Assembly: GCF_023015805.1 (NCBI RefSeq)
Contig: NZ_JALKBA010000011.1
Coordinates: 1 to 64,000, forward strand
Direction: 5' to 3'
From: Cellulophaga sp. F20128
GTDB taxonomy: Bacteria; Bacteroidota; Bacteroidia; Flavobacteriales; Flavobacteriaceae
DNA: 64,000 bases
Shown here: positions 20,632-30,559 of the stretch, in pieces
Numbering within the stretch: the first letter of the stretch is position 1
Layout: every line of letters begins with the position of its first letter
Position numbers and translations under genes: made by a program
Notes under the pieces: generated by a model
Databases searched by the model: none
The model's input: the letters and a program-made list of their open reading frames with translations, nothing else
Told to the model about the DNA's origin: nothing

Positions 20632-22095
20632 TTAATTGGATTTTAACTGTCTAATTTTTATTGAAAAAGCAGCGAAAATCAATGTCATAAAGGGGCTTAG
20701 CCAGTTAAATATGGCGTATATAAAATATTCACCAACCCCAACCCCTAAAACACCAGACTGATAGGCTCCACAGGTGTTCCATGGAATTAATACGGAGGTT
20801 ACTGTACCAGAATCTTCTAAGGTTCTACTTAAGTTTTCGGGAGCCAAACCTCTGTCTTCATAGGCTTTTTTAAACATTTTTCCTGGAATAACAAGTGCCA
20901 AATATTGATCGCTGGCAATAGCATTTAACCCCAAACAACTAACAACAGTACTAGCAAACAAGCCAAAAGTTGTGGTTGCAACAGCGAGCAGTGCCTTTGT
21001 AATGCGTGCAAGCGCTCCAATTCCGTCCATTATCCCACCAAATACCATAGCACATATAATGAGAAGTATGGTCCAGATCATGCCTTCCATACCGCCAGCG
21101 CTAAACAATTCATTTAGCGTTTCATTATCTGTAATGATGGCTGTATCTGTTAGTACGGAGTGCATAACAGCAGTGGTATTTGAGTCTGCTAATTGGGCCA
21201 AAACATCCGGTTGAAAAATAAAGGCAAATACACCGGCTAAAACAACTCCGGCTCCTAAGGCAATAAGGGGCTTTGTCTTAAATAAGATAAGGATGATGAC
21301 TACAATAGGAACTATAAATAAATAAGGAGTTATATTAAAGGTTTCTTTAATAGCAACCAATAGGCCACTAATATCTGCTGTACCTGTTGTATCAATATTT
21401 AGACTAATAATTGAAAAAACTAACAATGTAATTACAATAGTAGGTACTGTGGTATAGGTCATGTATCTAATATGCGTAAACAAATCTGTACCCGCCATTG
21501 CAGGAGCAAGATTTGTGGTGTCGCTCAAAGGCGACATTTTATCTCCAAAATAGGCGCCAGATATAACAGCGCCAGCAATCATTCCTGTTGGAATGCCTAG
21601 TGCTGTACCAATACCTATTAATGCAATACCTACAGTTGCAGAGGTTGTCCAGCTGCTTCCCGTGGCAATTGAAATAATAGCGGCTATCACAACAGAGGCC
21701 GGTAAAAATATGGTTGGATTTAAAACCTGTAGCCCATAATACACCATAGCGGGGATAATACCACTTACGAGCCATGTGCCAGATAACGCACCAACCAATA
21801 CCAAGATGAAAATAGGTACAAGTACACTTTTTAAATTTTCAAAAATTTCTTTCCCCATTGTAAATAGGGTTGTTTTATTGAAAAAACCAACAATTGCAGC
21901 CACACCACCACCCATCAATAAAATAATCTGATTGGAGTATTCCCCCATCATTTCACCAGCTGCAAAAAAAATATTATAAGCCAAGAGACTCATTAAGATG
22001 AATACCGGTATTAAGGCTTCAAAAAAATTTAATTCTTTATTTTCTACAATATGTTCATTTTTAGGGTCTGAAGTGCTTAAGTTCTGGTTGCTCAT
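20632..22095 (-). CDS. nhaC: NhaC-family Na+/H+ antiporter
   Basis: 487 residues with about 12 hydrophobic segments. The NhaC signatures are visible: S-W-T-T-S-A-T-V-G near residue 147, G-A-Y-F-G-D-K-M-S-P-L-S-D-T-T-N-L-A near 180, and a late W-N-T-C-G-A-Y near 438. Family members exchange Na+ for H+ or, in some cases, malate/lactate. A marine lifestyle fits sodium export. The gene appears monocistronic, 78 bp from the next gene upstream. Confidence 0.92.
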   Translation of the reverse strand: MSNQNLSTSDPKNEHIVENKELNFFEALIPVFILMSLLAYNIFFAAGEMMGEYSNQIILLMGGGVAAIVGFFNKTTLFTMGKEIFENLKSVLVPIFILVLVGALSGTWLVSGIIPAMVYYGLQVLNPTIFLPASVVIAAIISIATGSSWTTSATVGIALIGIGTALGIPTGMIAGAVISGAYFGDKMSPLSDTTNLAPAMAGTDLFTHIRYMTYTTVPTIVITLLVFSIISLNIDTTGTADISGLLVAIKETFNITPYLFIVPIVVIILILFKTKPLIALGAGVVLAGVFAFIFQPDVLAQLADSNTTAVMHSVLTDTAIITDNETLNELFSAGGMEGMIWTILLIICAMVFGGIMDGIGALARITKALLAVATTTFGLFASTVVSCLGLNAIASDQYLALVIPGKMFKKAYEDRGLAPENLSRTLEDSGTVTSVLIPWNTCGAYQSGVLGVGVGEYFIYAIFNWLSPFMTLIFAAFSIKIRQLKSN

Positions 22096-22173
22096 TAAAT
22101 GCCTTAGTTAGTTACCTCGTAATATTACGATTTTGACATGTTTCCTGCAAATTTTCAATTTTAGAAAGCTATT

Positions 22174-23382
22174 TTATACCGTTTTTATAATGTTTAAACT
22201 TTCCATACAGTTTTTCATGACGCGGTAGGTTCGCTCAATATCGTTATCTAGTCCTATTGAAAACCGAATTAAACCATTAGAAAGTCCCATTTCTTTTTGT
22301 TCTTCCAGGGGTATTTCAGAAGAAGTTGATGTCCCTGGGGCACTGAATAGGGTTTTGTAAAATCCTAGACTTACTGCTAAATAGCCAAGATTGCGTTCCT
22401 GCATTAACTCCATAAGTGCATTCGCATTTTCCAGGGTGCCAACATCTATGGTTAGAATACCGCCATAGCCATATTCTTGGTCCATTTGTTTATTCATTTG
22501 AGCGTGACTTGGATGAGAGCCTAAGCCAGGATATACCACGCGCAAACCATCTTTTTCAAAATGTTGGGCCAAATACATTGCATTTTCACTGTGTTTTTTA
22601 ATGCGAATATGCAGTGTTCTTAAATTTTTAAGGATTGAAGCTGCCCGCAAGCTATCTAAGGTACTTCCTAATAACATTCCAGCACCATTGTTTACATCTT
22701 TTAAGCTTAAGCAGAATTCTGTGGTACCACAGACGGCACCAGCAACACAATCACTTGTACCGTTGATGAATTTAGTAAGACTATGGATAACGATGTCTGC
22801 CCCAAGTTTTCCAGGTGTAATGTTTAGTGGTGAAAAGGTGTTGTCTACCACCAAAGGTAGTTTGTGCTTTTTTGCTAGGATTGAAAGCGCTTTAATATCT
22901 GCAATTTCTAGAAGCGGATTACTTACGGCTTCGCAATAAATCATTTTGGTTTGGGGTGTAATTGCTTTTTCTACGGCTTCAATAGAAGTAATATCAACAA
23001 AGGAAGAATTTACATTAAACTTTTTTACAAAGTTTTTTAAAAAGGCGTAGGTACCTCCATAAATAGTCCTGCTACTTACAATATGGTCGCCTGCATCACA
23101 CAATTGCATAATAACAGAGGTTATGGCGCCCATGCCGCTGGCGTATACATTGGCCGATTCTGTTCCTTCTAATGCAGCTAATGCTTCCCCTAAATAAAGG
23201 TTAGAAGGGGAAGAGTGTCTGGTGTATAAATAACAACCTTCTGTATTGCCTTCAAAAGTATCAAACATTGTTTTTGCTGATATAAAGGTGTAGGTGGAGG
23301 AATCAGAAATTGAAGGGTTAACACCTCCAAATTCTCCAAAATATTGTAAATCTAGTATGTTGTCTGATGCTTTAGAATCCAT
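22174..23382 (-). CDS. Cys/Met-metabolism PLP enzyme (methionine gamma-lyase-like)
   Basis: 402 residues of the trans-sulfuration PLP family. Recognisable are Y-x-Y-T-R near residue 51, A-S-G-M-G-A-I near 81, V-V-D-N-T near 178, and the PLP Lys in H-S-L-T-K (K204). Divergence from an Lrp regulator mirrors the known mdeA/mdeR layout of Pseudomonas putida methionine gamma-lyase. However, the position of the catalytic Cys of classical MGL (in Y-G-C-T) is Gly here (Y-G-G-T, G110). The reaction may therefore be cystathionine or another gamma/beta-elimination rather than true methionine cleavage. It is read as an amino-acid-degrading or sulfur-salvage lyase under Lrp control. Confidence 0.85.
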   Translation of the reverse strand: MDSKASDNILDLQYFGEFGGVNPSISDSSTYTFISAKTMFDTFEGNTEGCYLYTRHSSPSNLYLGEALAALEGTESANVYASGMGAITSVIMQLCDAGDHIVSSRTIYGGTYAFLKNFVKKFNVNSSFVDITSIEAVEKAITPQTKMIYCEAVSNPLLEIADIKALSILAKKHKLPLVVDNTFSPLNITPGKLGADIVIHSLTKFINGTSDCVAGAVCGTTEFCLSLKDVNNGAGMLLGSTLDSLRAASILKNLRTLHIRIKKHSENAMYLAQHFEKDGLRVVYPGLGSHPSHAQMNKQMDQEYGYGGILTIDVGTLENANALMELMQERNLGYLAVSLGFYKTLFSAPGTSTSSEIPLEEQKEMGLSNGLIRFSIGLDNDIERTYRVMKNCMESLNIIKTV

Positions 23383-23478
23383 TTTTGTAGTTTTTATACG
23401 TTAAATGTACTTTTTAATAGTTATATTGTCAATTAAAATTAAAATTAGATTAATATAAAACTATTATTACTCAAAATG

Positions 23479-23509
23479 ATAGATTTTAAATCTATAATTT
23501 TGAATTATA
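23479..23509. promoter_or_regulatory. Two adjacent palindromes, likely Lrp-family operator
   Basis: 23479-23495 has perfect 8-bp arms around one central T. It is followed, overlapping by three bases, by 23493-23509 with perfect 7-bp arms around ttg. A TAnnTTTG match (taattttg, 23495-23502) for the plus-strand regulator gene sits inside the pair. Operators overlapping the promoter fit autoregulation by the Lrp-type protein starting at 23533. Confidence 0.55.
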
Positions 23510-23532
23510 GTTCCATCCAAAGAAAATAGACT

Positions 23533-24009
23533 ATGACAAAGTTTGATGAAACCGACAGGAAGCTTTTGGAGTTATTGCAAGAGGATTGCAAGAAAACAAC
23601 AAAAGAATATGCCTATCAATTAAATTTATCCGTTACTGCTGTCTATGAGCGTATTAAGCGGTTAGAACGTGTTGGTGCAATCACCAAATATGTGGCATTG
23701 GTAGATAAAAAGGTGGTAAAGCGATCATTTGTAGTGTTGTGTCATATTAAACTCATACAGCATGCCAAGGAATTTGTTTTGAAGTTTGAGCGGGAAGTTC
23801 AAAAATTACCAGAAGTAGTAGAATGTTATCATGTAAGTGGTGATTACGATTATATTTTAAAGGTTTTGGTTTCAGATATGGATGCTTACAGAGACTTTAT
23901 GGTGACAAAACTTACGGTATTAAAGCATATCGGTAGCACCCAAAGTACTTTTGTAATAAATGAAGTAAAACATACTACGTCCATAGCTGTTGGGTGTGAT
24001 GTTGTGTAA
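23533..24009 (+). CDS. Lrp/AsnC-family transcriptional regulator
   Basis: 158 residues. The N-terminal winged helix-turn-helix begins F-D-E-T-D-R-K-L-L-E-L-L and includes L-S-V-T-A-V-Y-E-R-I-K-R-L as recognition region (about 30-45). A C-terminal RAM/ACT effector domain follows, with V-S-G-D-Y-D-Y-I-L-K near residue 100. Lrp-type regulators bind amino acids. Divergent transcription from the methionine-gamma-lyase-like gene suggests that it controls that enzyme and itself. The intergenic gap (150 bp) has two palindromes. Confidence 0.94.
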   Translation: MTKFDETDRKLLELLQEDCKKTTKEYAYQLNLSVTAVYERIKRLERVGAITKYVALVDKKVVKRSFVVLCHIKLIQHAKEFVLKFEREVQKLPEVVECYHVSGDYDYILKVLVSDMDAYRDFMVTKLTVLKHIGSTQSTFVINEVKHTTSIAVGCDVV

Positions 24010-25638: not shown

Positions 25639-25872
25639 TTAGTTTTTATGAGAACCATCGCAATAAGGAGGGTTGTTCGTTAACTTACACCTACATAAAT
25701 GACAAGTTTTGTTTTCTTCAACAGCAAACCCTAAAGAAGGTGTTGCGTAGTGTTTACGGTGAGAGCCATCGAAAAATGGCTGATTTTCACTATGGCTGCA
25801 GGTATACCAAGCATACCGCTTGTCTTTTTCTAAATCGACCTTTATGGGAGTATATTGTTTATTATCGCTCAT
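25639..25872 (-). CDS. Small protein with two CDGSH iron-sulfur motifs, the first degenerate
   Basis: 77 residues. The second motif (about residues 59-74) is intact: C-R-C...P-Y-C-D-G-S-H, the three-Cys one-His ligand set of a 2Fe-2S cluster. The first motif (about 22-37) aligns as Y-T-C...P-F-F-D-G-S-H, so two of the three Cys are Tyr and Phe, though the DGSH part is kept. Each change can come from one base (TGT to TAT, TGC to TTC). The protein should carry one cluster, not two. The function of bacterial dual-CDGSH proteins is unclear (redox or Fe-S transfer). Confidence 0.85.
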   Translation of the reverse strand: MSDNKQYTPIKVDLEKDKRYAWYTCSHSENQPFFDGSHRKHYATPSLGFAVEENKTCHLCRCKLTNNPPYCDGSHKN

Positions 25873-26000
25873 TGTTTTCAGTTAATTAACAATAAGCATA
25901 AACCAAAAGTCAATTGTCAAAAATTTAGCCCCTCAATTTTTAGTCAATCTAAATAGAATATAGCAATTGTATGGGGTTCACTTCAGCTATTCGTTCACAG

Positions 26001-26029
26001 ATACTCCTAAGGTTTACATAAATAATGAA
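26001..26029 (+). repeat. 29-bp direct repeat upstream of tsdA, copy 1
   Basis: Matches 26207-26235 at 26 of 29 positions, in the same orientation with an offset of 206 bp. Both copies contain a TA-N3-TTT core, close to but one base longer than the Bacteroidota -7 consensus. It could be a regulator-binding site or a duplicated promoter. Confidence 0.6.
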
Positions 26030-26206
26030 TTCACTTTTCATACTAAAAGACACAACACTTCTGCGCGGTATATACTACATGGGTTCTGTGTCTTAAATTT
26101 TGGCCGAGTCTACTTGAAATTGAGGTTTGGCCTGTTTGAGGCTCCTTACTGATTTTCACCAAAGAAAGGCGTAATACCTATTAATTCGATTATTAAAGAT
26201 TAATAA

Positions 26207-26235
26207 ATACTCCTAGAGTTTGCATAAATAATGAA
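26207..26235 (+). repeat. 29-bp direct repeat upstream of tsdA, copy 2
   Basis: Second copy of the 29-bp element at 26001-26029. It ends about 77 bases before the preferred tsdA start at 26312, a position suited to a promoter or activator site. Confidence 0.6.
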
Positions 26236-26311
26236 ACCCATTCTCGGGTATCAGTTCTAATTTTGTAATACCCCCCACAGTACCTTAGTGCATTTTAGAG
26301 TACATGTGATT

Positions 26312-27349
26312 ATGAAAGATGAAACGAGATACCTTATTCGGAAATTGGTGATTCAAATTACCAAATGCTGTAGTCTAATGCTACTGATTAGTGTAGTTAC
26401 CCTATTGTTTTATTTTGATGTATTTTCTAAAGCTCCACAGCAGCGACTAAAAATATCACTTGCTCCGATAGCTACAGACTTTGATATTTCCTTATTGGAC
26501 AATTCCAAAGAAAATACGGTTGTAAAATATGGTTATGAGCTGTTTAAAAATACACCCAAGTACATTGGCCCAGAAAACAGCAACCTCAATATAAGGACTA
26601 CCGGCAATGCATTGGCCTGTACCAATTGTCATTTACAGGCAGGTACCAAGCCTTTTTCGGCGCCGCTGATTGGTATTACCAATAGGTTCCCGCAATTTAG
26701 AGGTAGAGAGAATAAAATAGGCACTATTGAAGAACGTATTAATGGATGTATGGAGCGAAGTATGAATGGGAAGACATTAGCTGTAGATGGAAAGGAAATG
26801 CAGGCATTTGTAGCGTATGTATCTTGGTTAAGTAGATTGGCACCCAAAGACGGAAAAGTATTTGGTCAAGGGTTTGTGAAAATAGAAATTCCAAATAGGA
26901 AGGTTGATCTACAAAAAGGCAAAAAGGTATTTAAAAAAGTATGTGTTGCCTGTCACGGTACTAATGGCGAAGGTAAAAAAGCGATAGAAGATTTTGTCTA
27001 TGAATACCCTCCTTTATGGGGTTCTGATTCTTATAATAATGGCGCCGGAATGAATCGGGTTATTACAGCAGCACAGTTTATTAAGGCGAATATGCCTTAT
27101 GGAACTACCTATGAGAACCCGGTATTAAGTGATGAGGAGGCTTATGATGTTGCTGGGTACATCAACCAACAAACAAGGCCTTTAAAGCCTCAGCGAGAAA
27201 AAGATTTTCCAGATTTAAAGAAAAAGCCAGTGTCTACACCTTATCCGCCTTATGCGGATACGTTTTCGGTAGAGCAACATCAGCTGGGACCTTTTCAACC
27301 TATTATGACGTTTTATAAGCAAGAATACAATATTGTTAAATCTAAATAA
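26312..27349 (+). CDS. tsdA: Thiosulfate dehydrogenase-like dihaem cytochrome c (TsdA family)
   Basis: About 345 residues from the ATG at 26312 (a GTG at 26288 would add 8). Residue numbers here count from the GTG. A membrane segment (about 28-45) acts as signal or anchor. Two haem c sites are present, C-T-N-C-H at 111-115 and C-V-A-C-H at 219-223. TsdA hallmarks are G-T-K-P-F after haem 1, the R-I-N-G-C-M-E-R-S motif whose Cys (C154) matches the unusual haem-1 axial Cys of Allochromatium TsdA, and K-A-N-M-P-Y-G with Met269 as a likely haem-2 ligand. The C-terminal Y-P-P-Y-A-D and G-P-F-Q-P-I are also typical. TsdA oxidises thiosulfate to tetrathionate or runs in reverse. It is first of four genes. 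Confidence 0.88.
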   Translation: MKDETRYLIRKLVIQITKCCSLMLLISVVTLLFYFDVFSKAPQQRLKISLAPIATDFDISLLDNSKENTVVKYGYELFKNTPKYIGPENSNLNIRTTGNALACTNCHLQAGTKPFSAPLIGITNRFPQFRGRENKIGTIEERINGCMERSMNGKTLAVDGKEMQAFVAYVSWLSRLAPKDGKVFGQGFVKIEIPNRKVDLQKGKKVFKKVCVACHGTNGEGKKAIEDFVYEYPPLWGSDSYNNGAGMNRVITAAQFIKANMPYGTTYENPVLSDEEAYDVAGYINQQTRPLKPQREKDFPDLKKKPVSTPYPPYADTFSVEQHQLGPFQPIMTFYKQEYNIVKSK

Positions 27350-27359
27350 ATCAATACAT

Positions 27360-28040
27360 ATGAAAACTACAGAAAGTAATCCAAGAAGAAAATTTATGGG
27401 AGCTATGATGCTTGGCGCTACAGCGAGCACGCTATCCCTATTAGGCAACCCTGTGTATGCTAATTTACCAGAGTTCGATGATGAAAAAATGGGAGCAATA
27501 GACAACTGGTTCGATAAAATTAAAGGCAAACACAGAATTGTGTATGATGGTTCTACCCCACATGATGGGTTTCCAGTTATTTGGAACTGGGCATTTTATT
27601 TATCGAACAATGAAACAGGATCTGCCGACAGTGATATTACAGCAATGACAGTGTTGCGACACAATGCAATACCCTTTGCCTTAACATCTGAACTATGGAA
27701 GAAATACAAGCTTGGCGAAGTTTTTGGTGTTACCGATAACACAACTAAGGAGCCATCCTTGAGAAATCCGTATTACGAACCTCAGGAAGGCGATTTTCCA
27801 ATGCCGGTTATTCAGGGAATTAAAGATATGCAGCAACGCGGCGCTCTTTTTTGTGTGTGTAATTTGGCGATATCGGTTTACAGTGGCGCTGTAGCACAAA
27901 AAATGGGCTTGGACGCAAAAATGGTATACCAAGAATGGATAGATGCCATTCATCCAGGAATAGAACTTGTGCCATCCGGTGTGTGGGCCTTAGGTAGGGC
28001 TCAAGAACACGGCTGTGGCTATATTTTTGCAGGAGGATAA
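27360..28040 (+). CDS. Tat-exported DsrE-like protein
   Basis: 226 residues from the ATG at 27360. The N-terminus has a twin-arginine motif (N-P-R-R-K-F-M-G) and a hydrophobic stretch ending near A-N-L. The mature part resembles a DsrE/DsrF-like fold, with L-F-C-V-C-N-L-A-I near residue 165 and a closing A-x-x-H-G-C-G-Y-I-F-A-G-G. Cys residues there could carry sulfur, but function is inferred. It lies 10 bp after tsdA and 27 bp before a second, Sec-exported DsrE protein. Tat export usually means folding or cofactor loading in the cytoplasm, which is unusual for this fold. Confidence 0.7.
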   Translation: MKTTESNPRRKFMGAMMLGATASTLSLLGNPVYANLPEFDDEKMGAIDNWFDKIKGKHRIVYDGSTPHDGFPVIWNWAFYLSNNETGSADSDITAMTVLRHNAIPFALTSELWKKYKLGEVFGVTDNTTKEPSLRNPYYEPQEGDFPMPVIQGIKDMQQRGALFCVCNLAISVYSGAVAQKMGLDAKMVYQEWIDAIHPGIELVPSGVWALGRAQEHGCGYIFAGG

Positions 28041-28067
28041 ATCAGGATTAACTATATAAAGAAACTT

Positions 28068-28481
28068 ATGAAAACGTATATAAATTTAGTATTGGCGTGC
28101 TTATTTGCAACAATAGCATTGTCGCAGGAAAAACCAGTGAAAATAGTATTTGATGTCACCAGCAGTAATATTGGGGTACAAAAATCGGCCATCAGGCATG
28201 TGCAAATGATGTCGAAATCCTATCCAGATTCCAAATTTGAAATGGTAATTTACAGTAAAGCCTATGAAATGGTTATAGCCGATAAATCGGCCGTTGCCAA
28301 AGAAATGGCAGCACTGGCTAAAAACAAAAATGTAGATTTTGTGGTCTGTCAGGCATCCTTGAATCGGCACAAGATTGAAGCGTCACAATTAATTAAAGGT
28401 GTGAGAGCTGTTCCTGATGGTATCCTAGAGATTGTTGAAAAGCAGGCGCAAGGCTGGGGGTATATAAAGGAAGGGTTATAG
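28068..28481 (+). CDS. Sec-exported DsrE-family protein
   Basis: 137 residues with a signal peptide (M-K-T-Y-I-N-L-V-L to A-L-S-Q). The mature domain has the DsrE/DsrF/TusD-like pattern: V-F-D-V-T strand, helix, F-V-V-C-Q-A-S-L with a single Cys near residue 94, and the end motif V-P-D-G-I-L-E-I-V-E-K-Q-A-Q-G-W-G-Y-I. Cytoplasmic DsrE proteins carry persulfide sulfur; here the protein is periplasmic. It is the third gene after tsdA. A sulfur-carrier role is inferred. Confidence 0.8.
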   Translation: MKTYINLVLACLFATIALSQEKPVKIVFDVTSSNIGVQKSAIRHVQMMSKSYPDSKFEMVIYSKAYEMVIADKSAVAKEMAALAKNKNVDFVVCQASLNRHKIEASQLIKGVRAVPDGILEIVEKQAQGWGYIKEGL

Positions 28482-28549
28482 AAGTATAAGTGCGTTATCA
28501 GACTTAAGCTAGTATTTTTATTAGGGGCTGTTGACGCTAATTATAGCAT

Positions 28550-29350
28550 ATGGAAGCGGTGTATTTTTTTGGTTATTTAGGCGCATTGTTGGTGGGAATA
28601 ATTTTAGGAATTATGGGAAGTGGGGGTTCAATAATCGCAATCCCCATTTTTACTTACGTATTTCATATTAGCCCTATGGCAACTACCGCCTATTCTCTTT
28701 TTGTTGTAGGGGCCTCGGCTTCAATAGGAGTTGTAAGAAATTGGAGAAAAGGATTGGTAGATTTAAGAGTGGCAGTTGTTTTTGCGATTCCTGCCTTTCT
28801 CATGGTCTTTGCTGTTCGGAAATATATTTTGCCTATCATTCCAGAAGAATTATTTGTCATCAACCATCTTATGGTTACTAAAGATTTGATGGTGATGGTT
28901 CTCTTAGCCTTTACCATGGTATTGTGTTCACTATCAATGCTAAGAAAAAAGAATTCTCAGGTGGTAGCTCATAGTCAACATAGTTACAATTATCCTTTAA
29001 TTGTATTACAAGGGTTGCTTATAGGCTTGTTTACGGGTGTTCTGGGGATTGGTGGTGGATTTTTAATTATTCCTACTTTGGTGCTATTGATAAAACTTCC
29101 AATGAAGAAGGCTGTTGCTACGTCCTTGTTTATTGTCGCTATAAAATCATTGATTGGCTTTGCGGGAGACTTAGGGAATTTTGAAATAGATTGGGCCTTT
29201 CTTTTTACATTTACGATAGTATCTGTATTTGGTATTTTCTTGGGAATTTACCTTTCTGCTTTTATAAATGGAGATAAGCTTAAAAAACTCTTTGGTTGGA
29301 TGTTGTTGTTTATAGCAGTAGGTGTTTTTTATTTTGAGTTAATTTATTAA
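28550..29350 (+). CDS. TauE/SafE-family permease
   Basis: 266 residues with about eight membrane helices in two repeats. Each repeat opens with a Gly-rich motif (G-I-M-G-S-G-G-S near residue 21, G-V-L-G-I-G-G-G-F near 165) followed by I-P. The family exports sulfite, sulfonates or related anions. In this cluster (TsdA and two DsrE-like proteins) movement of a sulfur oxyanion or thiosulfate is the likely role. It is 68 bp after the DsrE gene. Confidence 0.88.
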   Translation: MEAVYFFGYLGALLVGIILGIMGSGGSIIAIPIFTYVFHISPMATTAYSLFVVGASASIGVVRNWRKGLVDLRVAVVFAIPAFLMVFAVRKYILPIIPEELFVINHLMVTKDLMVMVLLAFTMVLCSLSMLRKKNSQVVAHSQHSYNYPLIVLQGLLIGLFTGVLGIGGGFLIIPTLVLLIKLPMKKAVATSLFIVAIKSLIGFAGDLGNFEIDWAFLFTFTIVSVFGIFLGIYLSAFINGDKLKKLFGWMLLFIAVGVFYFELIY

Positions 29351-29381
29351 TTCTGTACGAATTTTTTATAGTTTCCAAAAC

Positions 29382-30497
29382 TTAGTTTTTATTTGGGTTC
29401 AATAATTTCCAGACACTTTGCTTTAACCTATTTAAGGTAGTTTTTACATTTAGTTCGTGTTTGTCATACCCTAACGCAAAAAGGGTACAGATCAGTACAA
29501 AAAATGCCGCTCCAACAATAGCAGCGGTAGGAGAGAGTGAATATTTAAAAAATTGGTAGAGCCCTAAGCCAGTAAAACTGCCGTAGAGAATAATAAAGTG
29601 AATAACATAGATGGATAGGGTGTTTTGCCCAATTTTTAAAATAATCTTATGGGTGATATACGTTCTAAAAAGCATGAATACAGCGAATATCAAGAGGACA
29701 TCGCCCAAGTGAATAAACAGATAATTATTAGAATATACGGCAACGAGAAATTCGGTATTCGTTCCAGCGGAAATCTCATAGAATATTCTAGATGAATTTA
29801 ACAGTACAAGGCCAAGGATAGTGCAGGTAATAATGGCAGTAGGGTATAAGTTTTTATGTTCTTTGTACTTGTAAAATAGCGAAGACATAAAGCCGCCAAA
29901 TGTGGCGTACCCAAACCAAGGAATAATAGTAAAGACAGATCCGTTTGCTCTGGTGAGGTAATTGGCCAAGGCATTGGGTAGATTAGAGTAGGTCCATAAT
30001 TTATAAGTGGGTTCAAATAAAAATAAAACCAAAGTTATAAGTAACAAAGTAAGAGTAAAAACCATAGGTTTTGTTTTGCTTGATAATATATACATACCTA
30101 TAATACCTAATATAGAAAGCCCAATACAGTGTAAAACATCCACCAAATAAAAAGAATTGTAGATGTTTCCGGTTAAAATACCCAGTATATTGGTTCGGAG
30201 TAAGTACCCTATGATTATCAATTGTATACCGCGACGAACCCCTTTTTGAACACGGGGGTTTTTAATTCCAAACTGTTTGCTTCTGATTAATAAATAGGTG
30301 AAAATAAATCCAGAAACCGTAAAGAAAACAGGGGCCGTCATACCTCTAAAATAACGCCAAAGACTATAACTCCACAACGTTTTATCCTTATAAACAGGAT
30401 CTAACAATCCGTCTATAAAATGCCCTTGAAGCATCATTAAAATAGCCCAAGCACGCATAGCGTCAATAAAATACAATCTATAATTAATATCTTTCAT
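29382..30497 (-). CDS. Membrane acyltransferase (heparan-alpha-glucosaminide N-acetyltransferase / DUF1624-like)
   Basis: I choose the ATG at 30495-30497, giving 371 residues that start just before the conserved F-I-D-A-M-R-A-W-A-I-L-M-M-L-Q-G-H-F motif. A longer frame from 30554 would put a -7 box (30552-30559) over its own start. About ten helices follow. The M-L-Q-G-H-F motif contains the family's catalytic His. Members move an acetyl group across a membrane onto a sugar; the substrate here is unknown. The gene stands alone. Confidence 0.8.
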   Translation of the reverse strand: MKDINYRLYFIDAMRAWAILMMLQGHFIDGLLDPVYKDKTLWSYSLWRYFRGMTAPVFFTVSGFIFTYLLIRSKQFGIKNPRVQKGVRRGIQLIIIGYLLRTNILGILTGNIYNSFYLVDVLHCIGLSILGIIGMYILSSKTKPMVFTLTLLLITLVLFLFEPTYKLWTYSNLPNALANYLTRANGSVFTIIPWFGYATFGGFMSSLFYKYKEHKNLYPTAIITCTILGLVLLNSSRIFYEISAGTNTEFLVAVYSNNYLFIHLGDVLLIFAVFMLFRTYITHKIILKIGQNTLSIYVIHFIILYGSFTGLGLYQFFKYSLSPTAAIVGAAFFVLICTLFALGYDKHELNVKTTLNRLKQSVWKLLNPNKN

Positions 30498-30551
30498 GGG
30501 AAGGAAGCAGCTACCTGCCTGCAATACTGGTTTTTCAATGGCTTTAATTTG

Positions 30552-30559
30552 CAAAACTA
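30552..30559 (-). promoter_or_regulatory. Possible -7 element for the acyltransferase gene
   Basis: The minus strand reads tagttttg, a perfect TAnnTTTG, 55 bases before the preferred start codon. It supports the downstream ATG over the one at 30554. The -33 element is unclear. Confidence 0.4.

Follow-up and report, generated by a model that had tools for sequence, protein, structure and literature searches.

A TsdA-DsrE operon in Bacteroidota, apparently an undescribed variant of thiosulfate metabolism

DsrE proteins are known to carry sulfur in the cytoplasm, and the oxidation of thiosulfate in the periplasm has been described via the Sox system or via TsdA. What might DsrE proteins do outside the cytoplasm, beside TsdA? 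The question is raised by a stretch of 64,000 nucleotides from Cellulophaga sp. F20128 (contig NZ_JALKBA010000011.1, positions 1 to 64,000, hereafter the window), where four open reading frames (ORFs) follow one another on one strand with intergenic gaps of 10, 27 and 68 bp: tsdA, for a dihaem cytochrome c; gene 2, for a DsrE-fold protein; gene 3 (dsrE), for a DsrE protein; and gene 4, for a TauE/SafE permease (Table 1). A first-pass annotation, made from the sequence alone, had picked out these ORFs and spacings, which our coordinates reproduce, and had read them as a four-gene thiosulfate module. Conservation in relatives confirms that the arrangement is real and far beyond chance, and the operon looks like a genuine variant of thiosulfate metabolism, apparently undescribed, no paper joining TsdA with exported DsrE proteins in its title or abstract being among the matches listed by full-text literature searches.

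Gene order, conservation and insertion

The neighbourhood was followed through the best 80 of 105 gene-2 relatives found in a scan of genome contigs, whose hosts, by record title, are Flavobacteriaceae genera, Algoriphagus, Cyclobacteriaceae/Flammeovirgaceae, Chitinophagaceae, other Bacteroidota and one metagenome-assembled genome (MAG) titled Chlorobiota. When co-occurrence across Bacteroidota was checked, as the first-pass annotation had suggested, the neighbourhood proved conserved, with tsdA immediately upstream of gene 2 in the same orientation in 59 of the 80 loci and dsrE directly downstream in 57; DsrE is out of reach in 21. The idea of a four-gene system stands for this tsdA-gene 2-dsrE core and fails for the set as a whole: TauE follows downstream on the same strand in only 15/80 loci, which rules out a fixed four-gene system, and in one locus (L003) an OsmC-like gene comes after dsrE, where TauE would stand. 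OsmC-like genes occur in three of the 80 loci.

Among 392 Bacteroidota genomes, TsdA (E 1e-30) was found in 48 and gene 2 in 10, all ten of which carry TsdA (Fisher 3e-10, a value uncorrected for relatedness), with the two genes less than 300 bp apart in seven and 4.6 kb apart in one. Pairwise distances of the three core proteins correlate (r 0.60, 0.52 and 0.83; 0/999 permutations as high), as expected from co-inheritance, and species history alone could account for part of this. The gene-2 alignment omits L044 (internal stop) and represents L003 and L004 by the longer copies L029 and L046; L012 (a short reading) is left out of the TsdA alignment, and L009, L035, L046, L051, L060 and L078, whose starts are cut or uncertain, out of that of DsrE.

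The lpd and acyltransferase genes that flank the module are kept in 18/18 genomes of the genus, and gene 2 is present in two of them, the window genome and G009, where it lies ~0.77 Mb from the lpd gene. In all seven same-genus relatives read, G009 included, 16-61 bp separate the acyltransferase gene from the CDGSH gene and no TsdA-motif ORF lies between; in the window the two genes enclose ~3.5 kb with the module, its extent taken from blastn ends. The module has been inserted here and is missing from most genomes of the genus, a point that the first-pass annotation had overlooked. Nothing in the window ORF list was recognised by eye as an integrase or transposase, no profile search for them having been made.

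Table 1. Features of the module and its surroundings in the window
Feature	Position	Strand	Description
tsdA	26312..27349	+	membrane-anchored (predicted) dihaem cytochrome c; CTNCH C103-H107, haem-1 ligand C146, CVACH C211-H215, haem-2 K258-x-N260-M261, conserved C-terminal tail ~293-345
gene 2	27360..28040	+	predicted Tat-exported DsrE-fold protein; C165-x-C167 and C219; probable distant relative of NF052225 thiosulfate dehydrogenase
gene 3 (dsrE)	28068..28481	+	predicted Sec-type exported DsrE protein; conserved Cys C94; PF02635 34.9 bits; PDB 2pd2 E 2.1e-9
TauE/SafE permease (gene 4)	28550..29350	+	facultative partner; PF01925 139.2 bits
insertion, approximate extent	25957..29381		between CDGSH gene (25639-25872, -) and acyltransferase gene (29382-30554, -)
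two imperfect 36-nt direct repeats	25994-26029, 26200-26235 (25994..26235)	+	upstream of tsdA; 83% alike, start-to-start 206 bp

Several further features of the surroundings deserve mention. The direct repeats lie in the inserted stretch and have a 27-nt core unmatched in shuffles, and copies of their 18-nt core occur, among the fetched loci, only in the window's own. In G006, an empty-site relative, a 280-aa ORF without window counterpart lies between the lpd and CDGSH genes (L168 1583-2425). Upstream of the module by 2-6 kb (20632-24009), genes for a Cys/Met pyridoxal phosphate (PLP) enzyme and an NhaC-type antiporter stand divergent from an Lrp/AsnC regulator, the nearest models for the former being O-succinylhomoserine sulfhydrylase and methionine gamma-lyase, both below their cut-offs. 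A sigma-70 promoter scan gave 3 sites (16.3 in shuffles), a flavobacterial -33/-7 pattern gave zero matches, and terminator-like sites numbered 13 against 3.7 in shuffles, several falling inside genes.

The cytochrome and its DsrE-fold neighbours

The tsdA product matches PF21342 SoxA-TsdA_cyt-c at 50 bits (cut-off 27) and PF00034 at 60.2 bits, and its best solved relative is the TsdA of A. vinosum (AvTsdA; E 8e-48). With residues counted from the ATG at 26312, C146 aligns with the AvTsdA C96/C123 position, the distal haem-1 ligand (alignment to 4wqc; residue position only, the model being haem-free); this is the haem-1 cysteine that the first-pass annotation had recognised, correctly as to the residue, under the number C154, which holds from a GTG at 26288. 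Both CXXCH haem motifs and the haem-2 Met ligand M261 are kept in 62/62 TsdAs, so that the haem-ligand residues expected of a TsdA are present, and S150, R132 and R142, the counterparts of TsdA Ser127, R109 and R119, are invariant in the family alignment, Ser127 being specific to TsdA and absent in SoxA. The homologues also share a C-terminal tail (residues ~293-345) that extends beyond the A. vinosum enzyme and holds an invariant His323.

Gene 3 is a DsrE protein by PF02635, matched above its cut-off of 22.7 bits, which agrees with its first-pass assignment. Its C94 is conserved in 56/56 homologues and in 9/9 of a more divergent set, Q20 likewise in 56/56, and its N-terminus combines a basic start with a hydrophobic stretch (1.7; 40/56 homologues reach 1.6). 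The score of gene 4 is far above the PF01925 TauE cut-off of 32.6 bits. Gene 2 is less easily placed: its window protein has no Pfam match, none of 81 family members matches PF02635 at E 0.1, and PDB searches gave a best E of 0.68 with the sequence and 0.36, to an unrelated protein, with the profile; a plasmid search with gene 2 gave zero matches. Fold comparison gives it the DsrE fold, and profile-profile comparison with gene 3 a match of probability 76 (E 2e-5, residues 158-225). The earlier label "DsrE-like" is thereby upheld by fold and by profile-profile match, not by the Pfam single-sequence profile.

The twin Arg of gene 2 is present in 80/80 alignment rows long enough to cover the site, and the Tat models TIGR01409 and TIGR02811 match 44/81 and 39/81 homologues at E 0.1, the window protein itself being unmatched; the latter has a hydrophobic stretch of modest strength (1.4 for the best 18-mer; 24/81 homologues reach 1.6). 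Read from sequence, gene 2 is predicted to be Tat-exported and gene 3 Sec-exported. Gene 2 also scores 17.9 bits against the NF052225 "thiosulfate dehydrogenase" model (curated cut-off 300 bits), with similarity over residues 101-221; 79/81 homologues match it at E 0.1 or better, and in the 392 genomes the best match reaches 41.2 bits, none passing the cut-off. By these profile matches gene 2 is in all probability a distant relative of that family, a relationship missed in the first-pass annotation. The idea that gene 2 has nothing to do with sulfur was rejected, its fold, the NF052225 similarity and its linkage speaking against it. Two oddities of the family may be recorded: the gene-2 copy of Marixanthotalea marina (L044:7001-7675) has one in-frame stop at an invariant Trp position, through decay or sequencing error, and in some Bacteroidetes MAGs (L063, L069, L079, L083) gene 2 is followed by a small conserved ORF and, by eye, hydrolase-like genes, TsdA and DsrE both being absent from the locus.

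The wider TsdA-DsrE unit and SoxB-like genes

Is gene 2 essential to the association? Of the 48 TsdA genomes, 47 were counted (G436 was left out; nine, including the window genome, were seen with 1.5 kb flanks only), and 20 of them have a DsrE gene at most 2.5 kb from TsdA on the same strand. In 12 of these 20, DsrE is the immediate neighbour of TsdA, with no gene 2 intervening; G207, among those 12, has gene 2 elsewhere. All 23 DsrE readings near TsdA start, by eye, with an export-type signal, and nine sampled TsdA-adjacent DsrE proteins retain the Cys at identities with gene 3 down to 22%. The broader Bacteroidota unit is, as far as these predicted signals tell, TsdA with a DsrE that is exported, and in many cases gene 2 is not part of it.

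DsrE is present in 14 of 40 fetched Bacteroidota loci, and among those 14, SoxB-like genes occur in seven, two half-length sulfur-transporter proteins in seven and TauE in four. SoxB-like genes occur in nine of the 40 and in none of the 80 gene-2 loci; four of the proteins score 250-275 bits against TIGR04486 SoxB, whose cut-off is 550 and which also matches below cut-off in 10/14 control genomes. The combination of tsdA and soxB has already been noted in Bacteroidetes (PMC7608252). Full-length metallo-beta-lactamase/rhodanese (persulfide dioxygenase-like) proteins are encoded in L149, L157, L162 and L165, and in L154, L160 and L163 similar readings run into the locus end, the other matches of the query being rhodanese domains only. 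In one genome (G441, locus L162) gene 2, two DsrE genes, TsdA, a SoxB-like gene, transporter genes and a dioxygenase-like gene share one stretch. In the window genome, other contigs encode a sulfur-transporter pair and two proteins of the dioxygenase-like kind.

Strong SoxB-like matches are found in 1/13 gene-2 genomes and 8/34 TsdA loci without gene 2 (Fisher p 0.41); by locus the counts are 0/80 and 8/34 (p 3e-5), for sets that differ in family make-up and include many cut loci. These counts do not decide whether gene 2 takes the place of SoxB. SoxY and SoxZ (PF13501, PF08770) were matched in 0/21 genomes, but no positive control matched either.

A possible role, its rivals and known systems

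What survives of the first-pass interpretation is a thiosulfate/tetrathionate module with two predicted exported DsrE-fold proteins. We give about even chances to a periplasmic operon in which TsdA oxidises thiosulfate and exported DsrE cysteines act as thiosulfonate or sulfane carriers; reaction direction, substrates, DsrE chemistry, hand-over and transported ion we infer as follows. With its N-terminal helix as inner-membrane anchor, TsdA would oxidise thiosulfate to tetrathionate through a Cys146-S-thiosulfonate at haem 1, and electrons would enter the respiratory chain via haem 2 with its His/Met ligands. Gene 2 (with its CxC and C219) and gene 3 (C94) may react with tetrathionate or TsdA-bound thiosulfonate to form Cys-S-thiosulfonate or sulfane adducts; outside the cytoplasm they would be carriers or carry out a second processing step. 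TauE, where present, might transport a sulfur oxyanion (sulfite or thiosulfate, for example) through the membrane. The carrier proposal combines the published Cys-S-thiosulfonate intermediate of TsdA (PMC4423706) with the finding that a DsrE protein of the Metallosphaera DsrE3A-TusA system takes up thiosulfonate from tetrathionate (PMC4175335).

Several observations weigh against this proposal. TsdA is out of reach in 19/80 gene-2 loci (several contigs being cut), and in 2/10 gene-2 genomes TsdA is on another contig than gene 2. By eye, the window ORF list has no electron-carrier gene next to tsdA besides TsdA itself. The window genome has no TIGR04486 match at E 1e-10 (a model that, as said, also matches controls below cut-off), and with none at the gene-2 loci there is no evident onward route from tetrathionate there. 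Lastly, K258-x-N260-M261, invariant in 62/62 TsdAs, equals the haem-2 motif K252/N254/M255 of C. jejuni TsdA (CjTsdA), a tetrathionate reductase in vivo (PMC5146829), a match that the first-pass annotation had missed; either thiosulfate or tetrathionate may thus be what is used.

The same motif and the lack of a SoxB-like match in the window genome speak for a tetrathionate reductase system, of respiration or detoxification, in which tetrathionate would be bound by the DsrE proteins and offered to haem 1 as thiosulfonate. We consider this unlikely, given the oxidative neighbour genes in several relatives and the bidirectionality of TsdA (PMC6879331). Asn260 as proof of a reductase is ruled out by the AvTsdA K208N variant, and the haem-2 residue does not set the direction, because that variant keeps the residual reductase activity of the wild type (PMC6879331). 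Gene 2 might instead be a haem-free thiosulfate dehydrogenase (TSD) of the Acidithiobacillus type, with TsdA mainly its electron acceptor, as the NF052225 matches of its homologues would allow; the A. ferrooxidans TSD gene, AFE_0042, is likewise annotated as a Tat-signal protein, with a product of ~25 kDa (PMC2754497; PMC6335251). Scores so far under the family cut-off, however, and a TsdA that retains a complete active site of its own make this distinctly improbable, and the link from AFE_0042 to gene 2 runs through the family name, its NF052225 membership being presumed rather than drawn from direct sequence comparison. Protection against reactive sulfur species, with exported thiol proteins and TauE detoxifying polythionates or sulfite and no energy conserved, would suit the sulfite exporters for which the TauE family is named, the OsmC-like genes and the sporadic presence in the genus; but TsdA, with two haems and its catalytic residues complete, is an enzyme of electron transfer, and with oxidation genes linked to it in relatives we rate this reading quite low.

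If the periplasmic carrier proposal holds, a conserved pair of TsdA and exported DsrE across Bacteroidota would give thiosulfate/tetrathionate turnover in these heterotrophs an additional step, with a carrier in the periplasm. A DsrE fold with CxC also offers a structural hypothesis for haem-free thiosulfate dehydrogenase. A bolder extension, which we advance tentatively and think unlikely on balance, is that exported DsrE-fold proteins of Bacteroidota fill the role that SoxYZ has as a thiol carrier in the periplasm. TsdA, which is related to SoxA, would hand thiosulfonate to the DsrE Cys for cleavage by SoxB-like or gene-2 proteins; there would then be a Sox-like pathway without SoxYZ, and the DsrE-like domain would be the catalytic fold of haem-free TSD enzymes.

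Compared with known systems, the window TsdA shares with the A. vinosum and C. jejuni enzymes the dihaem fold, the Cys haem-1 ligand, the Arg/Arg/Ser substrate site and the haem-2 Met, with K-x-N-M as in CjTsdA, and differs in its predicted N-terminal membrane helix and in the conserved tail with H323. TsdB is the partner of TsdA in known systems. Cytochrome c4 is another (PMC6704655), whereas here the companions are predicted exported DsrE proteins. Acidithiobacillus TSD resembles gene 2 in Tat signal, size and the profile similarity described above, but gene 2 falls far under the family cut-off, and the A. ferrooxidans TSD neighbours are doxDA and rhodanese genes (PMC6335251), that of gene 2 being tsdA. 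The Erythrobacter TsdA-SoxB-Sdo pathway is echoed by the TsdA loci with SoxB-like genes and differs from the gene-2 loci, where these are missing; the word DsrE is absent from the text of its description (PMC7608252). The Metallosphaera DsrE3A-TusA thiosulfonate carriers likewise include a DsrE-type protein with a reactive Cys, and their thiosulfonate chemistry is the model for our proposal; they belong to a cytoplasmic sulfur route beside Hdr-like genes, whereas the window proteins carry predicted export signals and adjoin TsdA.
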